64,000 bases of DNA from Gonapodya prolifera JEL478 (lineage: Eukaryota > Monoblepharomycota > Monoblepharidomycetes > Monoblepharidales > Gonapodyaceae). Numbering within the stretch: the stretch's first letter is position 1; each line of letters opens with the position of its first letter. The notes beneath the pieces are model-generated. The model made no database searches and was not told the origin of the DNA. It was given only the letters and a program-made list of their open reading frames with translations. The stretch spans positions 282,606 to 346,605 of the forward strand of contig KQ965765.1 of assembly GCA_001574975.1 (NCBI GenBank), given 5' to 3'. Positions 5,723-56,528 of the stretch are shown in pieces. The position numbers were made by a program, and so were the translations under genes.

Positions 5723-6893
5723 TTATTTTCTCTCTTCGCCATTCCACCAATCGAAAGCCATCCGCTCCACCTCCAAACTCGCGAGCACAAAAGCTGACTC
5801 TCCCAGCAAGCTATTCGGCCCAATTGGCCTCGTGGTGTAATACTGATACGTCGCGGTGGAGTTGAGGCCATTCACAGCGGCGGTGCCATTGTAGCCCAAA
5901 GTTCCGTTCTCGTAACGAACTACAAAGTTCTCTGCCACGTAGGCATAGGCCCTCAGCGCCTTACTGATGTGGTCCCACGACGGTTCTATGACTTGCAGGC
6001 GCGACGCTTTGAGGATGCTGAAGATGTAGAGCGCCGTTGAAGAGCTTTCCAGGAAGTTTCCCTCTCTCCTAGGAAACGTAAGTAGTTGCCACCAGACACC
6101 CGTTGAGTTGTCCCCAAGGTCAACCAGTACCGGAATAATAGCCTCTAGCATGCTGCGGGTGGCCGTCTGCACCGTCTGGGGAACGTGTGGGTATGCCTCA
6201 ACCAAACCCATCAGGAACCAACCCATGGAACGACCCCAGACGTACGGGCTACCGACAGTGGTGGAATTCGCCCACACCGCCGTTTTCGATGCGTGATAGC
6301 CGTGCACGAGCAACCCTGACGGGTGTGCGCAGTGTGTCTGGAGGAGTTGGAGCTGCTTGAGCATCTCGGTGTCACTCCAGCCGATCTTGGCCATAAAGGG
6401 AAGGAAGCCAACGACGCTGTCGAGGTAGGACCAATTTGGGTAGACGAAGTACCAGAACCCGCCTTCGGGATTCCGGGGTTGGAGTGTGAGCGAGCCGTTG
6501 AGGATGCTGAGCGCGGACGACTCGTTTCCGGAGAGGGGGCGGTCGAGGTTGGTATCCCAGGGTAAGTCTGTCCATGGACAGTTTGGTTGACGCGTTGGCG
6601 GACTTGAATGAGGGCAGAGTGGCGTCCAGCACCGCGTCAAGATAACTCGAAAAGTTCTTGCCCTCGGGACACCACGAGTAAAGGTCAACCCAGGACCGGA
6701 GGGCGTGGGAGAGGACGCCAGCTTCGAGAGTGCTGGTGGGCGCTCCCGAGGAGACGATGCCCTGCCTGCGAGATATCACGGAGTCGAGCATTTGGGTTGA
6801 AAGCGGCCGGAACGCTTCCGGGGTTGGGAAGGCATCGGTGTGAGCAGAGATTGCCGTCAAGATGATTAGGGGGAGGACAGTTATTGCTCTCAT
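5723..6893 (-). CDS. GH88/GH105-family unsaturated rhamnogalacturonyl hydrolase-like, with frameshift
   Basis: The N-terminus MRAITVLPLIILTAISAH is a secretion signal. The mature part shows family blocks: LSMDRLTLG, PEGGFWYF, YPNWSYLDS, LLVHGYHASKTAVWAN, VWGRSMGWFLMGLVE and GVWWQL. This family removes unsaturated uronic acid from the ends of pectin-derived oligomers (rhamnogalacturonan for GH105). The length of about 390 residues is normal for an (alpha/alpha)6 barrel. One defect is visible: the frame of the N-terminal part (through LSMDRLTLG) differs by one base from the frame of the rest (TNLDRPLSG onward). The shift lies near 6555-6575 beside CCC and GGG runs, and no intron fits. It is either a sequencing indel or a recent inactivation. 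Several Asn-X-Ser/Thr sites fit an extracellular enzyme. Confidence 0.75.
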
Positions 6894-10944: not shown

Positions 10945-11027
10945 TAAACCAACGCCATGTGCTCTATCAATAAATTCTGTCATTCTGCGCAGGAAGTCAT
11001 CGTGTAGTCCTGCTGTCTCCTCCGAAA

Positions 11028-11819
11028 ATGTGGACTCTGATTGGGTGCGACAACAATTCCCTCCAAGAGCGAAAGCCCGGCATGGGGACTCGATGGCTCG
11101 ACGGGAGCGCTCTGTCGACCACGACTCTCGACAAAGATCTCCCCGATCCTCCTGAAGCTCCCGCCCTACCCGAGAAAGCGCATACCTTGGACTTTGGACC
11201 TGTGGAATATCAACAATACGATGCAGACCCGCCTCTTCCTCCCCTTCTTCCCCAATCGAAGCTACCATATTGGCGAAGGGTGCGAAGACCGGTTCTTGTT
11301 GGAGCCATTGTGGCGGCTTGTGCCCTCGTTGGCATCGGCATTGGAATCGCTGTCGGAAGGACGTCAACGTCAGGAAGGTCGTTTCAGGACGACGTAACCT
11401 CCACACCGTCTAGCCCTCCACCAGTGCCCAGCGGGCCTGTTTCCCCCTTCGCCTACATCACGTACCACTCTTACTCACCCGACACCTCCCTCCTCACAAC
11501 GTCGTGCAGCGACGGTACGCACGGGCTCATCACACGAGGGTACTCCATGGCGCAGATGTATCCTGCCGTGAGCGCCGCCTCGTTCACGGTCTGGAACTCC
11601 CCCGAGTGCGGGGCGTGCTGGGCTCTGCTCAACCCTGCGAACGGCGTCACGGTGAACGTTACGATCGTGGACGGGTGTGGGCCCGTGGCAGGGTACGCGA
11701 ACCATTTTGATATTTCGCCGGATGCGTTCACGACGCTGGGGGGCCAGGCGGCGGTCAATGTGGGGCATATAATTGTGGAGAAGTATTCCAAGATTTCGGA
11801 GAAGCCGTGCGGGACCTGA
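11028..11819 (+). CDS. Membrane-anchored expansin-like (double-psi beta-barrel) protein
   Basis: This is a single-exon ORF of 263 codons, with a possible inner start at MGTRWLDGS. An N-terminal cytosolic tail of about 85 residues is followed by RRVRRP and one membrane helix (VLVGAIVAACALVGIGIGIA, near residues 88-108). A short Ser/Pro linker and a C-terminal barrel of about 125 residues follow. The barrel shows the RlpA/expansin signature: TSCSDGTHGLITRGYSMAQM, SPECGACWALLNPANG, TIVDGCGPVAGYANHFDIS. Such barrels loosen or bind wall polysaccharides, usually without hydrolysis. A type II membrane topology would place the barrel outside. It is a paralogue of the longer protein at 23165-24691, which has the same tail-helix-linker-barrel order. 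It is convergent with the TFIIB-like gene. Confidence 0.8.
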   Translation: MWTLIGCDNNSLQERKPGMGTRWLDGSALSTTTLDKDLPDPPEAPALPEKAHTLDFGPVEYQQYDADPPLPPLLPQSKLPYWRRVRRPVLVGAIVAACALVGIGIGIAVGRTSTSGRSFQDDVTSTPSSPPPVPSGPVSPFAYITYHSYSPDTSLLTTSCSDGTHGLITRGYSMAQMYPAVSAASFTVWNSPECGACWALLNPANGVTVNVTIVDGCGPVAGYANHFDISPDAFTTLGGQAAVNVGHIIVEKYSKISEKPCGT

Positions 11820-28012: not shown

Positions 28013-30130
28013 TCAGGTCTGCTCTTTCGACTCTGAACCTGTCGGATTAGCCGGACCTCCCAAGGAAACAGGTTTGTACATAACTGTCGTCACGAACTGA
28101 TGAAAAGGCTCAGAGCTGCACTATGGCAAACAAGCTCCGGTCACGCAACCCACCTTACTCCTGTAACGTGTGGTAATTGCAACTGCCATTACTCCATCTC
28201 GTATGCTGCACGCGTAAAGGTGATTGAGAGTAACATGGTGGGGTACAGGCAGCGTTGCGGTAACTTGATCTTCATCTGTGACAGGATTGTTGAGCACGAC
28301 GCGAGTCAATTGGGGTGGAAGGTTTACTGGCGGTACCGAGTAAGGGTCCGCAGGTGGTTGGGGGTTGGACTTGGATCGAGAGCTTTTGGACGGCGGTGGT
28401 GGAGGGGGATCGGCCGGTGGTTCGAGCAGCGACTTTGGGATTTCGCACGTATACGTTTCTTCCGGTGAGGAAGAGTAAAGTTCTCCACCTGGTCCTTCCA
28501 CGGTGTACTCGTCTTCGTCAGAATCCCGTGCAGTGAACTCGGCATCTCCAACCGCATCGAGTCCGTCGCCAAGATTAGTTCCGTACTCGTTGTCGAGTAA
28601 TAGGTAGTTTACCAGGTTGCCGGCGTCATCAGGTGCAGCCGGAAGATCGTCCGAACATCGCCATTCGTCGTCCACAATGAACTTGAAGTGATGGGTTCCT
28701 GGAGGAAGGTCAAGGATGGCAGTGAAGTCTTCATAGCTGCTCATAAAAACATGATGACGATTCACAGGCGCGGTGAGTGGGGCGATCGTGGTTACCCACC
28801 TTTTAGCCATCCGGATTTTATGCTTCCAATTATTGAAGCTTCCAGTTACGTAAACAGCCTTTCCCCCACCAGTCCACGTAATAATGACTGGGATTATACC
28901 TTTCTTCTCTGAAATGCGACTGTCTGAGAGAAGACATTACAGAGGTGGCAGAGTAGTCACCGTACCTTTTGCAGCCGCCGCAGCTCCAACACTGGCCAAG
29001 GGAGCAATACCAAGTCCTTTGCTTCCAGCCGTATGTACGATTTTACTTGTATTTGAATACGGTTTCGCACGAATCTCTTGGAGTTCCTGTTCCGTGTGCC
29101 GTTTCCGGTGCTTCTTCTTCCTCGGCGAATGAGACCGTGCGAAGGAAGGACGAGAGGGAAGAGACCCAGAAGACGCCACAGAGTAGTTGGATACTGACGA
29201 CACGACCCGCGTCGGGGTTCGGTCGCCTTGTGCGGGTGGTGAGACCGCCACATCGGTCGGTGTGTTCGCCCCGACTGTTTCAGAATTAGGGAAAGAGGAA
29301 GATGCGAGTCCAGCTGACGCAAGTTTCGATGAAAGTTGTGAAGGCGGGCGGGCATTGGAGTTGGAGGAGACCGAAGCTTGGCGCTCTGCGAGTGGCAGCG
29401 GTGCAACGAAACCACCCGACGGTCGTTCGAGTGCTGCGTACAGCATGGCACCTCCATCTTGGTTGGCAGAGCCGGACTGTCTGACGTGATTCAAGAAGCC
29501 AGCAGAAATGGCAATCGGATCGGATGGTCCAGCAAAATCCCTTGTGGACAGCTTCGTCTCGATGACGGGGACATTGTCCAGAACCGATATCGCCCCGTCT
29601 GTGAAGCCCCCTGAAGCGCCATCAACCGAGTCAAGGGGTGGTTCTGAGCTTGTCACGGCGGTGGCAAAGCTCGACTCCAGCGTGCTGCTGGTTGGTTTTA
29701 TGTGACTGTCGGCGAGGGAGGCCATACTCGCGCGATCCGGTGCTGCTCGTGGAACGAGGGTGTATTCTACTGGCGCGCCAAAAAACGGGTTCATAATAGG
29801 TGCGGGCGACGTCTGTGAGGTGGCTGACGGAGGGTGAAGTGGTGGGAGTTGCACATGAGCTGGTGTGACCGCGTCTGCTCCTCGCTCTAGTTGTGACCGT
29901 CCAGAGCCCTCCGTTTCCCCAACTCTAGTCGCAGCTTGGTCTTGAGACGGTCCATTCGGGTCGTGGGGCTTGCCAGGGTCAAGTGACTCGACAACGGACA
30001 AGCCTTCAGCTGGGGTTGTTTCCGCTGTCACGGAGCCTCGCTCGCTGGATGGGAGCGCATCCTGATCACCATCCGCTCCATTTTGACCGCCGTTGATGGC
30101 TCGAGAGAGCCATGATATCATGGAAGTCAT
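28013..30130 (-). CDS. AMP-activated kinase (SNF1) beta subunit
   Basis: A long disordered N-terminus of about 390 residues (start MTSMISWLSRAI; ends with basic HSPRKKKHRKRHTEQELQEI) precedes the glycogen-binding module: IIPVIITWTGGGKAVYVTGS, FNNWKHKIRMAKR, TAILDLPPGTHHFKFIVDDE and WRCSDDLPAAPDD. The ASC domain follows: PPQLTRVVLNN, LPVPHHVTLNHLYACSIRDG, AVAITTRYRSK and, after an intron, FVTTVMYKPV. It adds a tail (SLGGPANPTGSESKEQT) before TGA at 28015-28013. The beta subunit scaffolds the Snf1 kinase complex and directs it by glucose state. The N-terminus is much longer than in yeast Sip2. It is convergent with dynactin p62, with about 87 bp between. Confidence 0.92.
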
Positions 30131-45827: not shown

Positions 45828-48603
45828 TTAGGCGGTCGACGCAGAGGGATCGAAGAGCTCCCCAAGCAGCTTCTCCAGCTGCTGCGGGGTGAACTTGACG
45901 TACTTTTGCTGGTTCTTCGTGAACTCGACGTCTTGGTATCTGTCGCCGTCAGCACACACAAATGCAGTCATTCACTGTTACGCATGAGCAATTCCATTCA
46001 CAACAACTCACTTATCATAGAATTTCGCATACAGTGGCACCATAGCCAGGCGCACCGCCTGCACGAGCTGCTGCCGGAGCTCGGTGTCGGGAATAGAGAA
46101 ACTGCGCTGCCCGCCGAAAGTCTCGTCGAACGCTGTGTTGAAAGCCCGGAACTTTGCCTTGATGGCTTCGCGCTGTTGAGAGGAGAGCTGTTTGGGTGCA
46201 GGGCTGTTGTCCACGAGTTGGTCGTAGCATAGTTTCCACCTGCAAACGTCATTCGATTAGGTAGCGGTCGACCGTCCGAGTCACCCGTGGCTGGTTTAGG
46301 CCCACTCACACATCATCATACGCCGCCCGCTGCTTCTGGACCATCCTGTCTAACCTCATATCCACGTCCGGTCCGACAACATCCTGGAGAGTTCGTGACG
46401 CCCGAATGGCCTTTGAGACATAGTTGTAATTGTTGAGCAGGAACACGGTCGACAACGTCGGTTTCTTGTACGTGCGCGATTTGGTCTCGAGTGTTGTGAC
46501 GAGGGCGTCGAGGCAGTCGCCTTATGTGGCGCATGAAAAGGAAAAAAGGTGGCATGTAAACCCACCTTCGCAGCCTAGAATGACCCGCGGCGACGGGTCG
46601 GGTGCTACGTCCTCAACTAACCGATAAACTTGCCCAGTCCCTCACCGCCTGCCAAACTCCGTCCACGACTCTTATCCCGCCTCCCACCCAACGCGGGGCT
46701 TCCATCACCCGCCGTAGCAGACGCGGCGGCGCTAATATGTGCGTCGCCCATCTGCCGAATAAGGTTGTCAAATGTCGTGGGGTAGTCCAGGAACCGTTTG
46801 AGCGCGTTGAGGGTCTATCCGAAACATGCGTGTGTAACTTCCGGGTGTTGTAGGATTCATGAAAGCGACAGTTATACGATGCAACGTACATGACTCGTCA
46901 TCTCATGCACGGTGCCGTCACCCGAGAGGTTGGGTTTGGTGGCTTCGATGTGGATCTCCACGTAGAAGTCCTTGAGCATCCCGATGAGCGTGGAGTCGTA
47001 CGAGGCCACCGTGTCGTAGATTTCGTCCCCGGCGCGACCTGCGTCCTGAAGAGCCGCGAATAGAGCTGTCAGCATTAAAGAAGGTCCACGGTCCCCCACC
47101 ACCACCCCCACCGCGCGCACCCTTAACACGATGAGAACATACTCTAAGAAAGCCGCTCTTGGCATCCGTAAGACTTATCCGCATACACTCCTCCAAATCC
47201 GCCAACACCACCACCTCGGTATAGTCTCCTTTCGACGCCGCCCTCTTGACCCTTCCCACCAGTGCCTCTGCCTTCTCTGCAAATGCCGCAAACGATGCTC
47301 CAACCACACCTGTGAACGACGTCGGCACCAGATCCGGTGGAAGGGCAGAGGTGAGCACCCTATGTTCCGCCGCCGCAAGAGCCCCTAAGGCGTTCGTGTA
47401 CGCAATGTGCGGCCCGGACCCGCGTGCGTACGATTGCACGCGCGGAGCCATGTTTGTGGCGGCTTGGGAGGGGGGCAGGATTGATTTGGCGAAGGAGGGT
47501 TGCCGGACGGCGATGTAGGTGGCGACCACGTCGGTGTAGCTTAGGCCCTGGTGTTCGGTACCAGACATAAAGGAGGAGAGGGTGAAGAGGGTTTCCAGGG
47601 TTTGTGGGGGTGGTTGCGGGATTGTGACTGTGGAGGGAAGACCTTTTGAGGAGGTGTTGTTACGGAAAACACCATGCGCTCAACTATCCATCAACATTAA
47701 ACTCGGAAAATCATTTTTGACAACGGGGAATTATTGCGACATCCTGGAAGCTCCTCCGAGACGGGTGAGCGCTCCCTGTCACACTCAAACAACTTACAAG
47801 AGCTTTGTTGCGATGTGAGATCGACAGTGGTGGTTACCCCGTTAAGAGTCTTTCGGAACAGGTCTTGGATCTTTCCAAGTCCTGTTGCGAGGAGTGTCCG
47901 CTTTGAAGTAAAAGTGTGAATTGAAAGTTAACAACCGAGGAGTCAGACAAGCTGGTAGTCGACTGTCGCCTCACCAAGCTTCCCACAGCGCGGTCCGCAC
48001 TGCGAAACTGCGATTTGGCCAGGTATGTATAGGCGTCTCGCACGCGCGTGACCGAGTCCATGTACCTCTGGAGGTGGTCTTCGCGAGGTCTGGGTTCGAT
48101 GTGCTCGCGAGGACAGCTCCGGGTCACAGTAAGCTAACAACGTCACATACCCTCTGGTAATAACGGGTTCTTCTCGTCCAGCAAGGTCGAAATAGTTCGT
48201 TACAAGCTCCATTTGCATGATTGTGGCATCGATGTCTGTGTTGGAGCAACCTCCGTTGGCAAAACAGTTCCATTATTACAAGTACGAGGTACACACTGTC
48301 GTGTAAAGCCGTTAGCTTTGTCATCTGCTTGTGAATCGGTGCGATTGTCTTTTCAAGGCGAATCAGTCTGTCGTCGAATGAGGACAGGATCTGGGTCTGC
48401 AACACACATATTGCGTTACGACATGTCAAAAATTGATACGAGAGCGCGGAGAGTTGGCTCACCATTCTCGTTGCGATCGCGTCGGTTCGCTTCAATGTTT
48501 CCTGCAAGTCCGCCGCATCCTCCTCCTCGTCCTCGATTTTCCCCTCGAGCTCCAGCCGCCGCTCTGCAAGTCCACCGTCGTCCAGATACGCGGGGTCTTG
48601 CAT
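45828..48603 (-). CDS. EXO70: Exocyst complex component Exo70
   Basis: The start MQDPAYLDDGGLAERRLELE is followed by DLQETLKRTDAIATRMVSQ, ILSSFDDRLIRLEKTIAPIH and DSVTRVRDAYTYLAKSQFRS. The middle reads VQSYARGSGPHIAYTNALGA and DEIYDTVASYDSTLIGMLKD. Later exons give VFLLNNYNYVSKAIRASRTL, and the C-terminus KAKFRAFNTAFDETFGGQRS, SIPDTELRQQLVQAVRLAMV, KYVKFTPQQLEKLLGELFDP, with TAA at 45830-45828. This is Exo70 end to end, about 630 residues in eight or more exons. It tethers secretory vesicles to PI(4,5)P2 at the plasma membrane with Rho GTPases. An upstream in-frame ATG exists at 48648. It is divergent from the YTH gene (562 bp). Confidence 0.9.
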
Positions 48604-49165
48604 TGAGGGGTGGGGATGGCGGCAGCTTTGGTCACTTCTCGTCTGCACTTGTGAGTTGGCTTCGTATTGTTACACAAACATTCTGACTAACCATTCACCA
48701 GTCAGAAAAAAAAGCGAGGTTGATCACAGTACAGATGCTTGCTTTATAAGTAAGAAGAATGAATACGATTATGCTTTGGTATTTCCGTTGGCAGGTGCTG
48801 ACGGCACGTGCGGGGGTTACGCGTTGACGATGCAGGTTCAGAGCACCAGAGAACACTCTCCTTCAGAGTTATTTTATGAGTATGCTGTGCAAATTGACCC
48901 AGAGAATATGCTGTCAACGGGTCTCGTCCCTGCGCCGAGCATGATTTTGATCTCATGCTAAAACCGAAAACAAACGCCCTGAACTGCAGGCTGAATTCAA
49001 AGAAGCAAATCAACTCAACCACTCTAACGCAGGAACCGCGGGTGCAGGCTCTCTTTCACTTTTAGCGGTAGGTTACCGCAAGCGCAGGCCAAGCTTTTGA
49101 CGGAGTCCTGGAAACCTCTTTGTCCGTTTTGATCAGCCAGCCTCCGGATCCTATCGCGGCAAACC

Positions 49166-52100
49166 ATGTCCGCACCGCAACCCTCGTCCGGAAGCACGCC
49201 TGGCCAGTCTTCGCCGGGTCAGCTTGCGGCCCCGTTCTCCGAGGATGGCAGGTTTGGAAGCCAGGGCGGACAGTCCCCTCGTCAACCGACCGGTGACCTG
49301 GAGCAGCCGAGATGGACTCCCACACCAGAGGTATGTGAAAGAAAATTGGGCAAGCTGCCATCAACGTCTGGGGATGGGATGGTGGCGGGGGGTGGGGTGG
49401 CTCCTCCTGTTCCCATGGCTCGGGTGTTTTCGGGACTTCAATATGCCGCAAACGCTGGCAAACGCCATCCTCCCACCTCTTCATGAGCGATGATGGGGCA
49501 TGCTTGTGTGTATTTCCTCCGCAACCCATGTGCTCGGTGGTTTCGGCGCGTTCCAAAATCTCGCAAACCGGTGGCATTGCAAAACCCAAGTCCCCCTGAA
49601 ACATCAAGCTCACCTTCCTTCCCGCACCCCTCCCAGGCTGCAATACACGCCGCCTACCCCTTCCAACGGGCTTACCCCCACTTCGCACCCGCCAGTCCCG
49701 ACTTCGGTCCCCACCAACTCGCCGCCATGACGCTCGCTCGCCCAGGCATGGCTCTCGCGGATCCCACAGGGATGTCCTATATCGCTCATCCCTACATCCA
49801 GGCCGATTTCAGGGGGTATGTCCCCGTGCAGGCATTCGCTACTGATCCCAGAATGGCCCCTCGGGGATACGAACCTGCTGCGTTCCAGCCCGCGATGTCC
49901 CCCGTCCCGCACCACCCCAGACAGCGGGGAGGATCTGGGGTTGGAGGGCACGACCAGCGGTATGACGGTCCCTCGACGGACGTGGCACACAACATGCAGA
50001 GGGACGATGGAAGGGGGAGATGGGGCGGGGGGGGGTTCCAGTTCCCACCTCAAGCCGACGTGAGCCGGTCCGGCGCACCCTACCAGGCAGAGTATGCGCA
50101 GGGTGGGTACGCTGGCCAGCAGGGGCCGCCGCAGTCAAAGTCTCGGTTCCATGACCCAAGGTGAGGGTGACTCAGCCCATTCCGAAACCCAGTCGGCTGA
50201 TACCCATCGATACAGGCTTTCTGTGTGGGTTGGAAACGTTCCGCCTGACACTTCGTCGCAAGAGCTGTACAACTTCTTTGGCGACGTTGACGTCGAGGTG
50301 ATTCACCCTTCTAAATCTCCGTTGCTTCCCCCGTAAACACTTCATGGAATCCTCTTTGCTGTTTCCCAGAGCATCTACGTAGTTCCGAAATCGCGCTGTG
50401 CGTTCTTGAACCTCTACAACGAGGACCAAGTCATCGATGTCGTGAGAAGGTACCATGAGAGTGTGTTCCGGAATGGGCGGATCTTGTTGCGGCCTCAAAA
50501 GGTTTGTGCCAACTTCTCCCCATGCTTCGGCCATTTTTTCTAACAATACGCAAACACGCAAACACGCCAGGAATCTCCCCGCTACGCCGCCGCATACCGA
50601 CAAGACCCCTCCCTGGGCGGAGGCTCCTCCCTCGGTCCAGCCTCGGCGCAATTCCGAGGCTCATCCCGCTCGCCATCAAACTACCTGCCCTCACCCGCCG
50701 GAACACCCGGCTCGACGTATCAACAGCTGCCAGGTCAGTCCGTCGTTCCGCAGGTCATGGTGGATGGGCAGTCCAAGGAGCGGTTCTTTGTCATGCGGTC
50801 CATGTGAGTTTAGTGTTGGGAATTTCTCTAGCACGGGATCACGGTGACACGCGACGATGCTCACTATAGAACGGAACAAGCCATTATTCTCTCCGTCGAG
50901 ACTTGCAAGTGGTCGACTCAGCTCAAGAACGCGGCGGCGCTCAACGAGGCCTTCGACATGTGCGAGACCGTGTACCTCGCCTTCTCAGTCAACGGGTCTC
51001 GCTCCTTCTTTGGGTATGCCATGTGAGTTGCGGTTGTACGAGGTGGTGCGGTGTAATGCTGTGGCCTGATAGGAGTGGGTGTCGTGGGTGAAGTATGACG
51101 TCTAGAATCAGACCTCTCAAGGCGAACGCGGAAGATCAGCTGTTTGCGACGGTTCATCCCAAATTGGATCTGACGTCGCCGTTTACCCTCCAATGGGTGA
51201 CGTATGAGTGAGTTCTACAGTCTGGTTCGGATAAAGTCATGTGGAAGGCTTTAATCTTATCTCGGTGACTGTCTTGTTCAGCTGCAACCTGCCCTTCGAA
51301 GACACGAACGATCTTCGCAACATGCTGAACATGGGATTCCCAGTGTCTCGGTACGCTTATCATCAATCCGACCATTTTTTTTTTCCAGTGGACCAATCTC
51401 TCCATAACATCCCCATGACAGATCCAAGGACGGTGTAGAACTGGACCACTCTTGCGGAAAACGTCTCATTTCCCGCCTCGACGAATACTTTGCCCAGAAC
51501 CCGTCATCCAAGCGTGAAGTCATCGCAGCCGTGGCGTCTCAGTGAGTTTCTCTCGGTTAAACCTCGTTCATCACACTTTTCTTACAATTGAATTACAATG
51601 CAAAGGGGAGCGGGATCTCCTGTTATTGAGCGCTCGCGGTCGGTGGAGGACTTGTCGCTCGCACAAATAAAAGTGGAGGAGGACCTCGAAGCGATTCGGT
51701 CGAATGGAGCGACTCTCTACGTGAGCTTTGTGGTTCAACAGCATATGTCCGTATATATTCGTGATAATGCTTTAACAGCCGTCACAGCTCAACCCCTCGG
51801 AGGACCCCATCTTGCGTCACCGTCGCACCTTTTCCACACCCATTCTGGAATCGCTCAACCCTGCCTCGTCTCCGGAACGGTCCTCCGGCGCTATGAACGG
51901 TTCACTTCACCCACCGTCCCCGTTATCCATGTCGACGCACGCGTTCAGCCATACTCGGGCTCAGTCCACCTCCATCTATGGGGCGGCCCGTGGGCAACTG
52001 TCTCCCCAAGCCGTCCTCGAAGCACTTAAGAGGTCCCCGACGACAGCGACGAGGCCCGCTCACGGAAGATCCGCCAGTCAGCATATGCAGGCCACCGATG

Positions 52101-53218
52101 CAATCGCATTCGCACAAGCAAACGGTGCACTCGAGGGATCGCCCATTCAACTCTCTGGATCGGCGGATAGTGCCCATCTCGCTGCCGCATTGGGACACGC
52201 AAGGCAGCGGAGCAGGGACCTCGCGGCAGAGGCTTTTGCGTTCCCACCTGGCTCGGGATTGGAGGGGTCAAATGGGCTTAGGAGCGCGTCGGACATGCCC
52301 ATCATTCCGAGTGCGGGTCATTCCAGAACAAGGAGCAGGGATCTCGCCGTGGACCCGTTCATGATGGGGAACACGAGCCAAGTTCAGCTGCCAGGTGCTG
52401 TGGGACACGGTCGCACCAGAAGTCGTGACTTCGCCACCGATCCGTTCCCTCTTGGGTCACCCGGAGAAGGGGTTCTTCCAACACCAACCCACACTCGCAC
52501 GAGGAGCCGTGACCTGATCTCAGATCCCTTCCCTCTTGGAAATCCCGGCGACGGACCCCTCATCCCGGCCGGTCATACGCGAATGAGGAGTAGGGATTTG
52601 ACTGAGGTCTTCGGGTTGGGACCCTCACCCGGCATGGAAGGCCACCGCGGAAGCCCGCTCAACAGTTCTAGCGACGGTCCTCTCATGATGCGCAATCACG
52701 CACGCACAGCAAGTCGGGACATGGTCGGAGGACCTATCGGGTTCGGAACTGTGAGGGACGGATCGATCGCGAGCTCGCAATCTAGCGTCGAGTCCCTGGC
52801 GGAAATAATGTCAGGTATGCCGGACGTCGGCGACCTTCATGTGCGGGGCCTGTTCGCGTCATCGCCGGGACTGACTGAGTTGGACAAGTCCACGGCGGGG
52901 TCGATGCTAGGATCGATGGGATCCACAAGCCGCTTGGTTGATGATGTCAACGTCGTACGGCGGCAATTGATGCAGCTTTCGATGGGTACCGGCTCTGGCA
53001 TTGGATCAGATCTGGACGGGTCCATTACGACTTCGGCTGCCTCCTTGATGCAATCGAATGCCTTTGTCAGCGAGGTGTTGGTTGCGGCCCCCGCGGAAGG
53101 AGTGAAGCACGCATACGACGAAGACGACGAAATGTTTTCTGCAGGGGTTCCGAAGCTCGATTCGTCTCCGGAAAGGTGGAACGCAGTGGGAGGGCAGACC
53201 TGGATTGGTCTGCAATGA
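49166..53218 (+). CDS. RRM-YTH domain RNA-binding protein with C-terminal RSRD repeats
   Basis: Exon 1 starts MSAPQPSSGSTPGQSS. A disordered Gly/Pro/Gln region (to about 50160) precedes an RRM: YRLSVWVGNVPPDTSSQELY, NFFGDVDVE, then SRCAFLNLYNEEDQVIDVVR. The YTH domain follows: KERFFVMRSM, IILSVETCKWSTQLKNAAAL, VYLAFSVNGSRSFFGYAM, FTLQWVTY, CNLPFEDTNDLRNMLNMGFP and KDGVELDHSCGKRL. The first cage Trp (CKWST) is kept; the usual NPW is NML. A long last exon (from about 51790) has six copies of an HxRxRSRDLxxDPF-like unit and ends GGQTWIGLQ at 53218. It is likely an Mmi1-type RNA-decay or meiotic transcript factor; m6A reading is doubtful. Confidence 0.85.
52190..52735 (+). repeat. Peptide repeat HxRxRSRDLxxDPF, six copies
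   Basis: Within the last exon of the YTH gene the units are GHARQRSRDLAAEAF, GHSRTRSRDLAVDPF, GHGRTRSRDFATDPF, THTRTRSRDLISDPF, GHTRMRSRDLTEVFG and NHARTASRDMVGGPI, spaced about 27-41 codons apart. Weaker copies (SHTRAQS, AHGRSAS) lie upstream near 51950 and 52060. The Arg-x-Arg-Ser core resembles basophilic kinase or 14-3-3 sites. Confidence 0.8.
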
Positions 53219-53971
53219 TTTGGGGAGGTGGAATGGTGGATGGTTGGGGTGTTGTGCAAAATAGATGTGAGCTTTTTGGGAGGGATTGGAGCTGTTGGAT
53301 TTTTCTTTTCTTCGAAATTCGGGCTGGGCTTTTTGACATCGGAATGAACGTTGAACATGAGTGGTCACTTGTCGCATGTGTCAGCCTACCGTGAACCATG
53401 GTTTACGTAACAGCAGTACTACTCGCGGATCCGGCAACATGGCTGGAGCTTGAGTCAACCGCAGTACTTGCATCTCCTCTGCATCACCTCTCTACGCACG
53501 GCGGGCGTCACTCGAGCTACTTCGTTCACTTCTGTAAACTTGGAGGAGCATTTTTTTTCAGAGAGACAACAGAAAGTATACCATCACGATTTCAGCGGGC
53601 CGGCTCCTGTTTGGAGGAGATGACGTGGGAATATGGCAATGAAGCAGACCATATAGACCCCTTTCTTTCTTTATCTTAGCAACCGAAAATGTAAAAAAGA
53701 TGGAACAATCCTTTGCCTCAAGCCACATGCAATGTGCATTTCGTGCTCTGGTCGACCAAATTGATGCGCAGTTCAGTCCCGTACATCGCTCCACGTATTC
53801 GCGTGATATAAGCAGGCGAAGAGAGCCCACTTGACTAGCATTCTCGATCGGATAAGGTTCGAGAGATGGTGGAGTCAGGGCAAAGAAAGATTGGTCACCC
53901 AACGTGTATAAAAGTGCGGCACAGTTGATACTCAGCAGGCAGCGTGCACTGCACGGTATTCCTTCCTCAGA
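53219..53971. other. Intergenic, promoter of the PFK-2/FBPase-2 gene
   Basis: An ORF of 93 codons at 53398-53679 shows no motif. A TATA-like TATAAAAG lies at 53906, about 66 bp before the next start codon. Confidence 0.4.
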
Positions 53972-56528
53972 ATGACCACCAACGGAACGACGAAGAGATC
54001 CCCACCAACAAGCCCGGGGACCGCGAGCCCACCCGTACTCTCTCCGCGTCCCCAGACTTCCTCGCTCCGGGTAGCGGCCACCAATGCCAGAGCACGCGCT
54101 TCGTTTCTCCCTGCACCCTCGACCAATCGCCTGCAGCCCATCGCGAATCCGATGCTATGGAACAACACGCCTATGCCCACGCCATCACCGCAGCCCGACG
54201 ATGCTCGCCTACGGGCGACGGTCATGGCAAAACCCGGCGCTCTTCAGGACACTGACTTGGGCTTCCCCGCCTCCCCACAACCAACGTTTTCAGTCGAGGA
54301 CCGAAGGATAGCACGAGGTGCATTTCCGTGTCGCTGAGGTCGAATCTCCGTGGAGCTCACTGCTTTTGCGCCCTTCCCAATGTCGACATGGCCCTGACGC
54401 GTCATGATTCCTCACTGTGACACAGACTATTTGGAGCGACGGAATGAAATAGGTCCAAAGCTGGTGATAGTTATGGTGAGTTTTCGTCGATTTCGCTGAT
54501 CCTTGTCCGGCTGTCTCTAAGAACATTTCAATTCGCGAAGGTCGGCCTTCCAGCCCGAGGGAAATCTTGTGAGTAATGATTCAAAACGTACTGAGTACGT
54601 TACTATATGAGATTGGAACATATCAGATATCAGTCACAAGCTGAGGCGGTTCTTGTCATGGATGGGTGAGTCTTGGCATGGAGCCGGCTCACGATACGTC
54701 GCTTTCCCGACTCTAATGAGGCCATCAAAGGTTTTCGAACGAAAATCTTTAACGTTGGGAACCGACGGCGAGTTGCCGACGCCGGTTTCCAAGCAGACGG
54801 TCACAGCGTAGGACGTCTCCAAATTTGTCCGGGAGGACCACCCAATCAACCTTCCACGTCACCCGTAGGCCAACGGAAATCACGCTGAAGCTGATGCCCA
54901 TCCTGTCGGCGACCCGCAGCACCACGATACAGGAGCGACCACACATGACGCGACCTTTTTCGACCCCAACAATGCTAGAGCTCGGGAGCTGCGGGAGCAA
55001 GTGGCTCTGGACACACTCGAGGAGTTGATCTCGTGGCTTAAGTCGGGTGGGAAGGTTGCTATCCATGGTGAGTGATGGCGCCGGAGAACGTCTGAGTTTC
55101 ACGAGCGACGTTGACGAACTGCGGGTTTCCAGATGCCACGAATTCGACACGAGTACGAAGGTATGTGGTCTGTCTTCTGGAGCCGTTTTCAACTTCAAAA
55201 GCTCTGCGACTTTCAGAGAGGCCCTGATACACCGAGTCTCGCAAGAACCCAACATCAGTTTCATGTTCATGGAATCGATTTGGTGGGGTATCCCTCGCCT
55301 CTCTTTGCCGATACCACTTAGATCTTACATGTGCGTCTCTTTTCACCGGTGCTCGTCCTATAACAGCACGGATCCCATTATTTTGGAAACCAACATCCGC
55401 ATGAAACTGAACTCGCCGGACTATCGCAATATGGACCCTGAAATGGCCATCGCGGACTTCAAAGCTCGGACACATAACTACGAAAAGGCTTACGAGCCGC
55501 TTGGGGATGTTGAGGAGCAATTAGACGTGAGGTATGTTCTATTAAAGGGGTACGTGGGAAGGTTGCAGGCTCACCACGAGTTCTGTTTAGCTATGTCAAG
55601 GTCTTCAATGTGGGAAAGAAGTCCATCGCGTACAATGTCCGCGGTTACCTGATGTCCCAGTGTGTGTTCTTCCTGGGAAACATGTACGTTTTGAACCGTA
55701 GCGCCCGTCACTTTTACCGGCTGTCACAAGCGTCTGTACCCATACAGGCACATAGCAGATCGAGTCATCTACCTCACACGCCACGGCGAGTCCGAATACA
55801 ACCGCGAAGGGAAGATCGGCGGGGACCCTCCCCTCACAGACCAGGGCCGACAATTCGCTGCCGCTCTTGCCCGCTTCGCGCAAGAGCGGCACCCAATCGC
55901 ACCTGCCTGTCCTGAAAAGTCCAAGGCGGACTCGACGTTTGGTGGCGGTGGCGGCGGCCAGCTCCAGCTGTGGACGTCCAAGCTGCGAAGAACGGTGGAG
56001 ACGGCCCAGTTCTTTGACGAGCAGTATGAAGTCACGACCATGAGGTTCTTGAATGAGATTTATTCGGGGTTGTGTGAGGGAATGACTTACGTGAGTTGCT
56101 GGTGCTGGCTCTGGCTCCGGTTTTCCTTGTGCTCACCGAAACCCCAGGACGACATCGAAAAGGTGTACCCCGAGGAATACCGCACACGGCAAGCCAACAA
56201 ACTGATCGGGCGGTACCCGGGCGGGGAAAACTACATGGACGTGATCGAGCGTCTTCGGCCCGTTGTCGTGGAGCTGGAGCGGCTCTCGACGGACGTGCTC
56301 ATCATCACGCACAACGTCGTTATGCGGACTTTGCTGGCGTACTTTACGGGGATGGACCTCCTCGAAATGACCCTGCTCGACGTTCCCCTGCATACCGTGT
56401 ATTGCCTCAAGCCCAAACCGTACGGGGTGGAGATTGTGAAGTATCGGTGGAATAAGGAAACGGATGGGTTTTGTGAGTGGGATCGCCTGCAAGGTCGTGA
56501 ATATGGCAGCCGTGTTAATCTGGTATAA
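53972..56528 (+). CDS. Bifunctional 6-phosphofructo-2-kinase/fructose-2,6-bisphosphatase
   Basis: A Pro/Ser/Thr-rich N-terminus (MTTNGTTKRSPPTSPG) precedes the kinase: KLVIVM and, after an intron, VGLPARGKS (Walker A), YISHKLRRFLSWMG, TKIFNVGNRRR, ATFFDPNNARARELREQVAL, LISWLKSGGKVAIH, DATNSTRVR, NIRMKLNSPDYRNMDPEMAI and YEKAYEPLGD. The phosphatase half has VIYLTRHGESEYNREGKIGG, TSKLRRTVETAQFF, FLNEIYSGLCEGMTY, EEYRTRQANKLIGRYPGGEN and VLIITHNVVMRTLLAYFTGM. Both phosphatase His residues and the Glu are kept, so both activities are expected, unlike yeast Pfk26. It sets fructose-2,6-bisphosphate and hence glycolytic flux. About ten short-intron exons; stop at 56526-56528. Confidence 0.92.

Follow-up and report, generated by a model that had tools for sequence, protein, structure and literature searches.

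The C-terminal tail of a YTH1-type RNA-binding protein encoded in the window (the whole stretch of DNA analysed, 64 kb) carries nine HxRxxS sites, which probably constitute a multisite substrate region for a kinase of the NDR/LATS family (Hippo pathway), most likely the Cbk1/Orb6 orthologue acting with a Mob2-like partner, and through which an RNA reader would be switched. The nine sites are non-random, all of them are retained in a second copy of the gene, and kinase, Mob and 14-3-3 genes are present in the genome.

The exons of the YTH1-type gene were picked by eye from GT..AG boundaries and the reading frame, and then translated; splice sites and frame match those of the second copy. A Pfam search of the whole protein returned RRM_YTH1 and YTH alone, both above their cut-offs (Table 1), so the protein looks like a fungal YTH1-type reader; the preliminary description of this DNA had placed the array on a YTH protein and RNA regulator, and the YTH domain is confirmed. 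Proteins with the Pfam RRM_YTH1 domain are assumed here to correspond to the published YTH1 clade; of 128 Agaricomycotina surveyed, 67 have both PHO92 and YTH1 (PMC10826363). The tail, of 529 residues, gave no Pfam match in the same search, in agreement with the earlier remark that the repeat has no named domain, and it is likely to be disordered, judging from its composition and lack of domains. At the positions of the m6A aromatic cage, the first Trp is retained and the second is aligned to Phe, as read by eye from the alignment. MT-A70 genes were found in the genome.

Table 1. Positions in the window of the YTH1-type gene, its domains and candidate sites, and of other frames mentioned in the text or lying in the same stretch.
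Feature	Positions	Strand	Remarks
Frame with glycosyl hydrolase 88 domain	5723-6775	-	
Frame with cerato-platanin domain	10974-11819	+	
AMPK beta-subunit frame	28121-28936	-	Domains AMPK1_CBM and AMPKBI
YTH1-type gene	49166-53218	+	Predicted; 11 exons, splice sites picked by eye; product 1044 aa
YTH1-type gene, exons 1-6	49166-49330, 49637-50160, 50216-50297, 50370-50501, 50571-50803, 50870-51022	+	
YTH1-type gene, exons 7-11	51106-51207, 51282-51350, 51422-51541, 51606-51720, 51779-53218	+	
FQFP, candidate Cbk1 docking motif	50036-50047	+	aa 189-192, after a Gly run; motif of PMC4428629
RRM_YTH1 domain	50220-50495	+	aa 232-299, intron inside; Pfam PF25701, 43.8 bits, cut-off 35
YTH domain	50778-51476	+	aa 371-505, introns inside; Pfam PF04146, 105.1 bits, cut-off 22.1
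Unit-like IERSRSVEDL	51625-51654	+	Ser539; no histidine
NDR/LATS candidate site 1, HRRTFSTPI	51818-51844	+	Ser584; sole mode-I-like 14-3-3 site of the nine
NDR/LATS candidate site 2, HTRAQSTSI	51950-51976	+	Ser628
NDR/LATS candidate site 3, HGRSASQHM	52061-52087	+	Ser665
Six-fold HxRx[RA]SRD[LFM] unit	52196-52744	+	Ser710, 751, 780, 808, 836, 877
FAFP, second [YF]xFP core	52235-52246	+	aa 718-721; FSFP in the second copy
Unit-like GLRSASDMP	52274-52300	+	Ser736; no histidine
Frame with histidine phosphatase domain	55695-56528	+	

The sites start at residues 579, 623, 660, 705, 746, 775, 803, 831, and 872, and H-x-R-x-x-S alone is common to all nine. The six from residue 705 onward form a repeated unit with start-to-start spacings of 41, 29, 28, 28, and 41 residues. 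This stretch had been presented as a six-fold HxRxRSRDLxxDPF repeat; six units do lie there, but the complete string HxRxRSRD[LF]xxDPF is found in three of them and HxRxRSRD in five, the sixth unit being HARTASRDMVGGPI. SRD is present in every unit (in five of six in the second copy, where the remaining one has SRE), and DPF in three, the C-terminal half of the others being EAF, EVF, or GPI. The count of six also holds for the repeated unit only, as the array comprises three further HxRxxS sites upstream in the tail (residues 579, 623, and 660; 51818-52087), which have little in common with the unit except H-x-R-x-x-S. Two unit-like segments without the histidine, at Ser539 and Ser736, may be ancestral or decayed sites.

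The frequency of these sites was clearly different from that of shuffled sequences. HxRxx[ST] occurred nine times in the 529-residue tail, whereas 50,000 shuffles averaged 0.23 and never exceeded four, and HxRxxSR[DE] followed by a hydrophobic residue occurred six times (0.0003 in shuffles). In a survey of 582 frames of at least 100 aa, drawn from the 64-kb window and from loci of at least 4000 bases, partly overlapping, 546 frames had no site, 30 had one, two had two, and four had nine; the last four are the YTH1-type gene and its second copy, each counted twice owing to overlap of loci. Yeast proteins with a conserved docking site appear to hold 2.95 site matches per 1000 residues vs. 0.36 in those without (PMC4428629); the YTH1-type protein holds nine HxRxx[ST] in 1044 residues. 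Across the genome, the DNA pattern for HxRxRSRD[LFMI] gave 15 matches, nine of them in the two gene copies, vs. 10 for the reversed control; the remaining six lie at six separate places and do not exceed that control, and the array was accordingly rejected as a family common to other proteins. A shorter DNA pattern was too loose to discriminate (689/651 matches vs. 610/652 in the control). One scan of viral_contigs yielded no relative.

Tandem Repeats Finder returned no rows for positions 51500-53300, which rules out a DNA minisatellite. Among direct repeats just one exceeded 19 nt, a 65-nt pair with 72% identity (units 775 and 803), and the same residues are specified by different codons between units. 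All these factors taken together indicated that the repeat exists at the protein level.

HxRxx[ST] is the consensus of the Cbk1/NDR/LATS kinases (PMC4428629), an AGC subgroup for which histidine at -5 is a requirement unique among AGC kinases (PMC4320110). In order to avoid circular reasoning, the position of histidine was surveyed around all 21 RxxS/T of the whole protein: it stood at -5 in nine of them, and at any other offset between -12 and +12 in no more than two. As the six units probably share ancestry, the count was repeated in two ways: leaving the six out gave 3 of 15 (P = 0.007), and treating them as a single event gave 4 of 16 (P = 0.0007). Akt sites are marked by Arg at -5 and -3, PKA sites by Arg at -3 and -2, and AMPK/Snf1 sites by hydrophobic residues at -5 and +4; none of these patterns matched any of the nine sites. 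By motif, the assignment of the candidate sites to NDR/LATS kinases is strong. Of the AGC/AMPK-type sites proposed in the preliminary description, the AGC half was right, since NDR/LATS is an AGC subgroup, and the AMPK half has to be abandoned; the multi-site phospho-switch suggested there is still the best reading, with the kinase class corrected to NDR/LATS and phosphorylation itself being presumed. SRD[LFM], and partly DPF, exceed the kinase consensus in the six units, and a pure kinase site leaves them unexplained.

Two [YF]xFP cores lie outside the RRM and YTH domains, vs. 0.13 expected (P = 0.007), for a motif that is not rare, being present in seven other + strand frames of at least 60 aa, coding or not, at seven loci. 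This core is the docking motif of Cbk1, and Ssd1 peptides require a basic second residue (PMC4428629); the second residue is Q in FQFP and A (S in the second copy) in the other core, neither of them basic. The YQFP of Ace2 is preceded by two glycines, with one to four tolerated (PMC4428629), and FQFP is preceded by GGGG, or GGVG in the second copy. The kinase itself has an orthologue in this genome (L034, contig C3; best PDB match CBK1), where W444, F447, and Y687, the peptide-binding residues of yeast Cbk1, correspond by eye to Y, F, and L. The docking pocket is therefore only partly conserved, a point against the NDR/LATS reading, and docking of the kinase on the [YF]xFP cores is no more than plausible. 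The activation segment of this orthologue reads YMAVETF vs. YIAPEIF in yeast and departs from the usual APE motif, possibly through an error in the gene model or the sequence.

A Mob2-like gene is also present, whose closer counterpart in yeast is MOB2 rather than MOB1, although MOB1A/B chains score higher; a pair of genes on C25 and C18 appears Mob1-like by eye. A 14-3-3 gene was found in the genome as well. Mode I 14-3-3 binding (RxxS with P at +2) fits one of the nine sites, Ser584 in RTFSTP. The earlier reading of the repeat as 14-3-3 sites is thus weakly supported for the six-fold unit itself, which may act through charge or another partner given that Ser584 alone fits mode I.

The second copy (C58, L024; product of 1043 residues) shares 91% DNA identity over 48901-53599. 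Similarity to C58 extends over 45897-54894, at 85-89% DNA identity, and for this reason C58 probably represents the other haplotype or a homeologue. The YTH pair C36/C105 and the Mob1-like pair resemble this duplication by eye, and part of the genome seems to be double. The second copy, within the same genome, keeps all nine sites and both [YF]xFP cores. Comparison of the two copies over the nine hexamers (54 codons) shows seven synonymous changes and none in amino acids; across the 447 tail codons outside the nine 9-mers, 29 amino acids differ (dN/dS 0.15). When site positions were rotated, equally few differences were obtained with marginal probabilities (P = 0.04 for the nine 9-mers and 0.06 for the nine 6-mers). 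The pair being close, the comparison speaks weakly for constraint on the sites. Other YTH genes were found on C36 and C105 (PHO92-like by eye) and on C1 (L025; divergent, and distinct from YTH1 and the PHO92-like genes); no + strand frame of at least 60 aa at these paralogue loci held more than one HxRxx[ST].

From these elements we infer docking, phosphorylation, 14-3-3 binding, and an outcome for RNA. Once docked at a [YF]xFP peptide, the Cbk1/Orb6 orthologue would phosphorylate as many as nine tail serines. Unphosphorylated motifs would act as basic patches in a slightly acidic array and favour association with RNA or RNP granules; phosphorylation would neutralise these patches, 14-3-3 would bind at least at Ser584, and bound mRNAs would be freed from repression or decay at growth sites. 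By analogy with Ssd1 and Sts5, the reader may in this way be bound in RNPs in one state and released in the other. The charge pattern (K/R vs. D/E: 22 vs. 6 within the nine 10-mers that span the motifs, and 8 vs. 17 in the rest of the array) agrees with the proposed neutralisation.

The array could instead serve a different basophilic kinase for which RxxS suffices, of the Dbf2/Sid2 type with Mob1, or CaMK, PKC, or Snf1/AMPK, the histidine then being incidental. RxxS is present in all nine sites, and a minimal RxxS/T signature is known at identified Dbf2/Sid2 sites (PMC4320110). A Mob1-like pair is encoded in the genome, and the window itself contains a frame for an AMPK beta subunit. We nevertheless consider this explanation distinctly unlikely: the enrichment of histidine is restricted to -5 and recurs in three sites outside the repeat, and the AMPK, Akt, and PKA forms are each absent from the nine. 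A different proposal starts from the residues that the units share beyond HxRxxS (SRD in all, DPF in half), together with a spacing of 28-41 residues suitable for multivalent binding, and takes SRD[LFM]xx[DE]PF as a repeated peptide that docks a partner many times over, raising avidity, or as a condensation sticker, rather than primarily a kinase site. It is the C-terminal half of the unit, however, that decays, whereas H, R, and S are constant in all six, and the three additional sites carry the kinase part alone; a primary role in binding is thus improbable.

The array might also be a by-product of neutral origin: one unit would have undergone a few duplications in a tail free of constraint, and its copies would now be drifting. 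The 65-nt alignment of units 775 and 803 and the marginal rotation test would be in line with such an origin, but the motif codons differ between copies at synonymous positions only, the three extra sites are unrelated to the unit beyond HxRxxS, and docking cores are commoner than in shuffles, which makes drift highly improbable. Another point against the NDR/LATS reading comes from the Dis3L2/Ssd1 homologue. Nearly every Dikarya Ssd1/Dis3L2 homologue surveyed is reported to retain Cbk1 and docking sites (PMC8097288), and the homologue in this genome (C40; best PDB match DIS3L2) was the expected positive control for Cbk1 sites. Its N-terminal frame (706 aa; L047, 2075-4192, + strand; RG-rich) contains no strict and one loose Cbk1 site, and short upstream frames of uncertain coding status add one strict and two further loose ones, the gene model being incomplete. 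C3 has its best match in DIS3/RRP44, and C91 in RNase R.

Because the part of this homologue that was read has almost no Cbk1 sites, NDR output might, provided that its gene model is right, have shifted to the YTH1 reader, which would then be a main NDR/LATS (RAM) output in the lineage in place of Ssd1/Dis3L2. Coming from one incomplete gene model, this extension of the NDR/LATS reading is rather unlikely; if true, a nine-site rheostat would connect Hippo-type signalling straight to a YTH/m6A-type reader. Few downstream targets of Cbk1 (RAM) are known in basidiomycetes, the group to which this genome is taken to belong on the basis of gene content and introns; in Cryptococcus no Ace2 homologue or downstream RAM component had been identified before the SSD1 and PSC1 suppressors of the study cited (PMC9708076). 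A YTH reader with nine candidate NDR sites offers a direct, testable target of the Cbk1 pathway and, if it is an NDR target, would make YTH-dependent mRNA fate subject to Hippo-type growth control. A report on Cryptococcus Msd1 had no relevance to the array in the portion consulted (PMC13321354). In open-licence PubMed Central text, no literature was found joining Cbk1 to YTH, combining a fungal YTH domain with 14-3-3 and phosphorylation of a disordered region, or dealing with the array itself; for NDR/LATS kinases and YTH, none of the 15 papers listed of 823 matches joined them, judging by titles and the opening of abstracts.

Among known systems, the fungal YTH1 clade shares the combination of RRM_YTH1 and YTH, and the sections consulted of PMC10826363 describe no array of phosphosites in the tail. 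LATS phosphorylation of Kif23 takes place at HxRxxS, is followed by 14-3-3 binding and needs the -5 His in vitro (PMC4320110). Kif23 is an animal protein with two sites, in contrast to the long array found here. YAP has a LATS site with 14-3-3 capture. In fission yeast, Orb6 promotes binding of the 14-3-3 protein Rad24 to Sts5 and so keeps Sts5 out of granules; like the present protein, Sts5 binds RNA and has NDR consensus sites matching RxxS 14-3-3 sites (PMC5011436), whereas it is a Dis3L2 relative from a group with two motifs (PMC8097288) and the YTH protein has nine. In Cbk1-Ssd1 of Saccharomyces, and in Dikarya Ssd1/Dis3L2 generally, an RNA-binding protein likewise bears multiple HxRxx[ST] sites together with a [YF]xFP core. 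Ssd1 is inhibited by Cbk1 (PMC4428629), its sites and docking core lie in a fast-evolving region (PMC8097288, PMC4428629), and its loosely defined sites number seven in yeast and eight in Cryptococcus (PMC8097288). The present protein has RRM and YTH domains instead of the cold-shock and RNase II domains of Ssd1, and its candidate sites lie C-terminal to the domains and are stricter and more regular.
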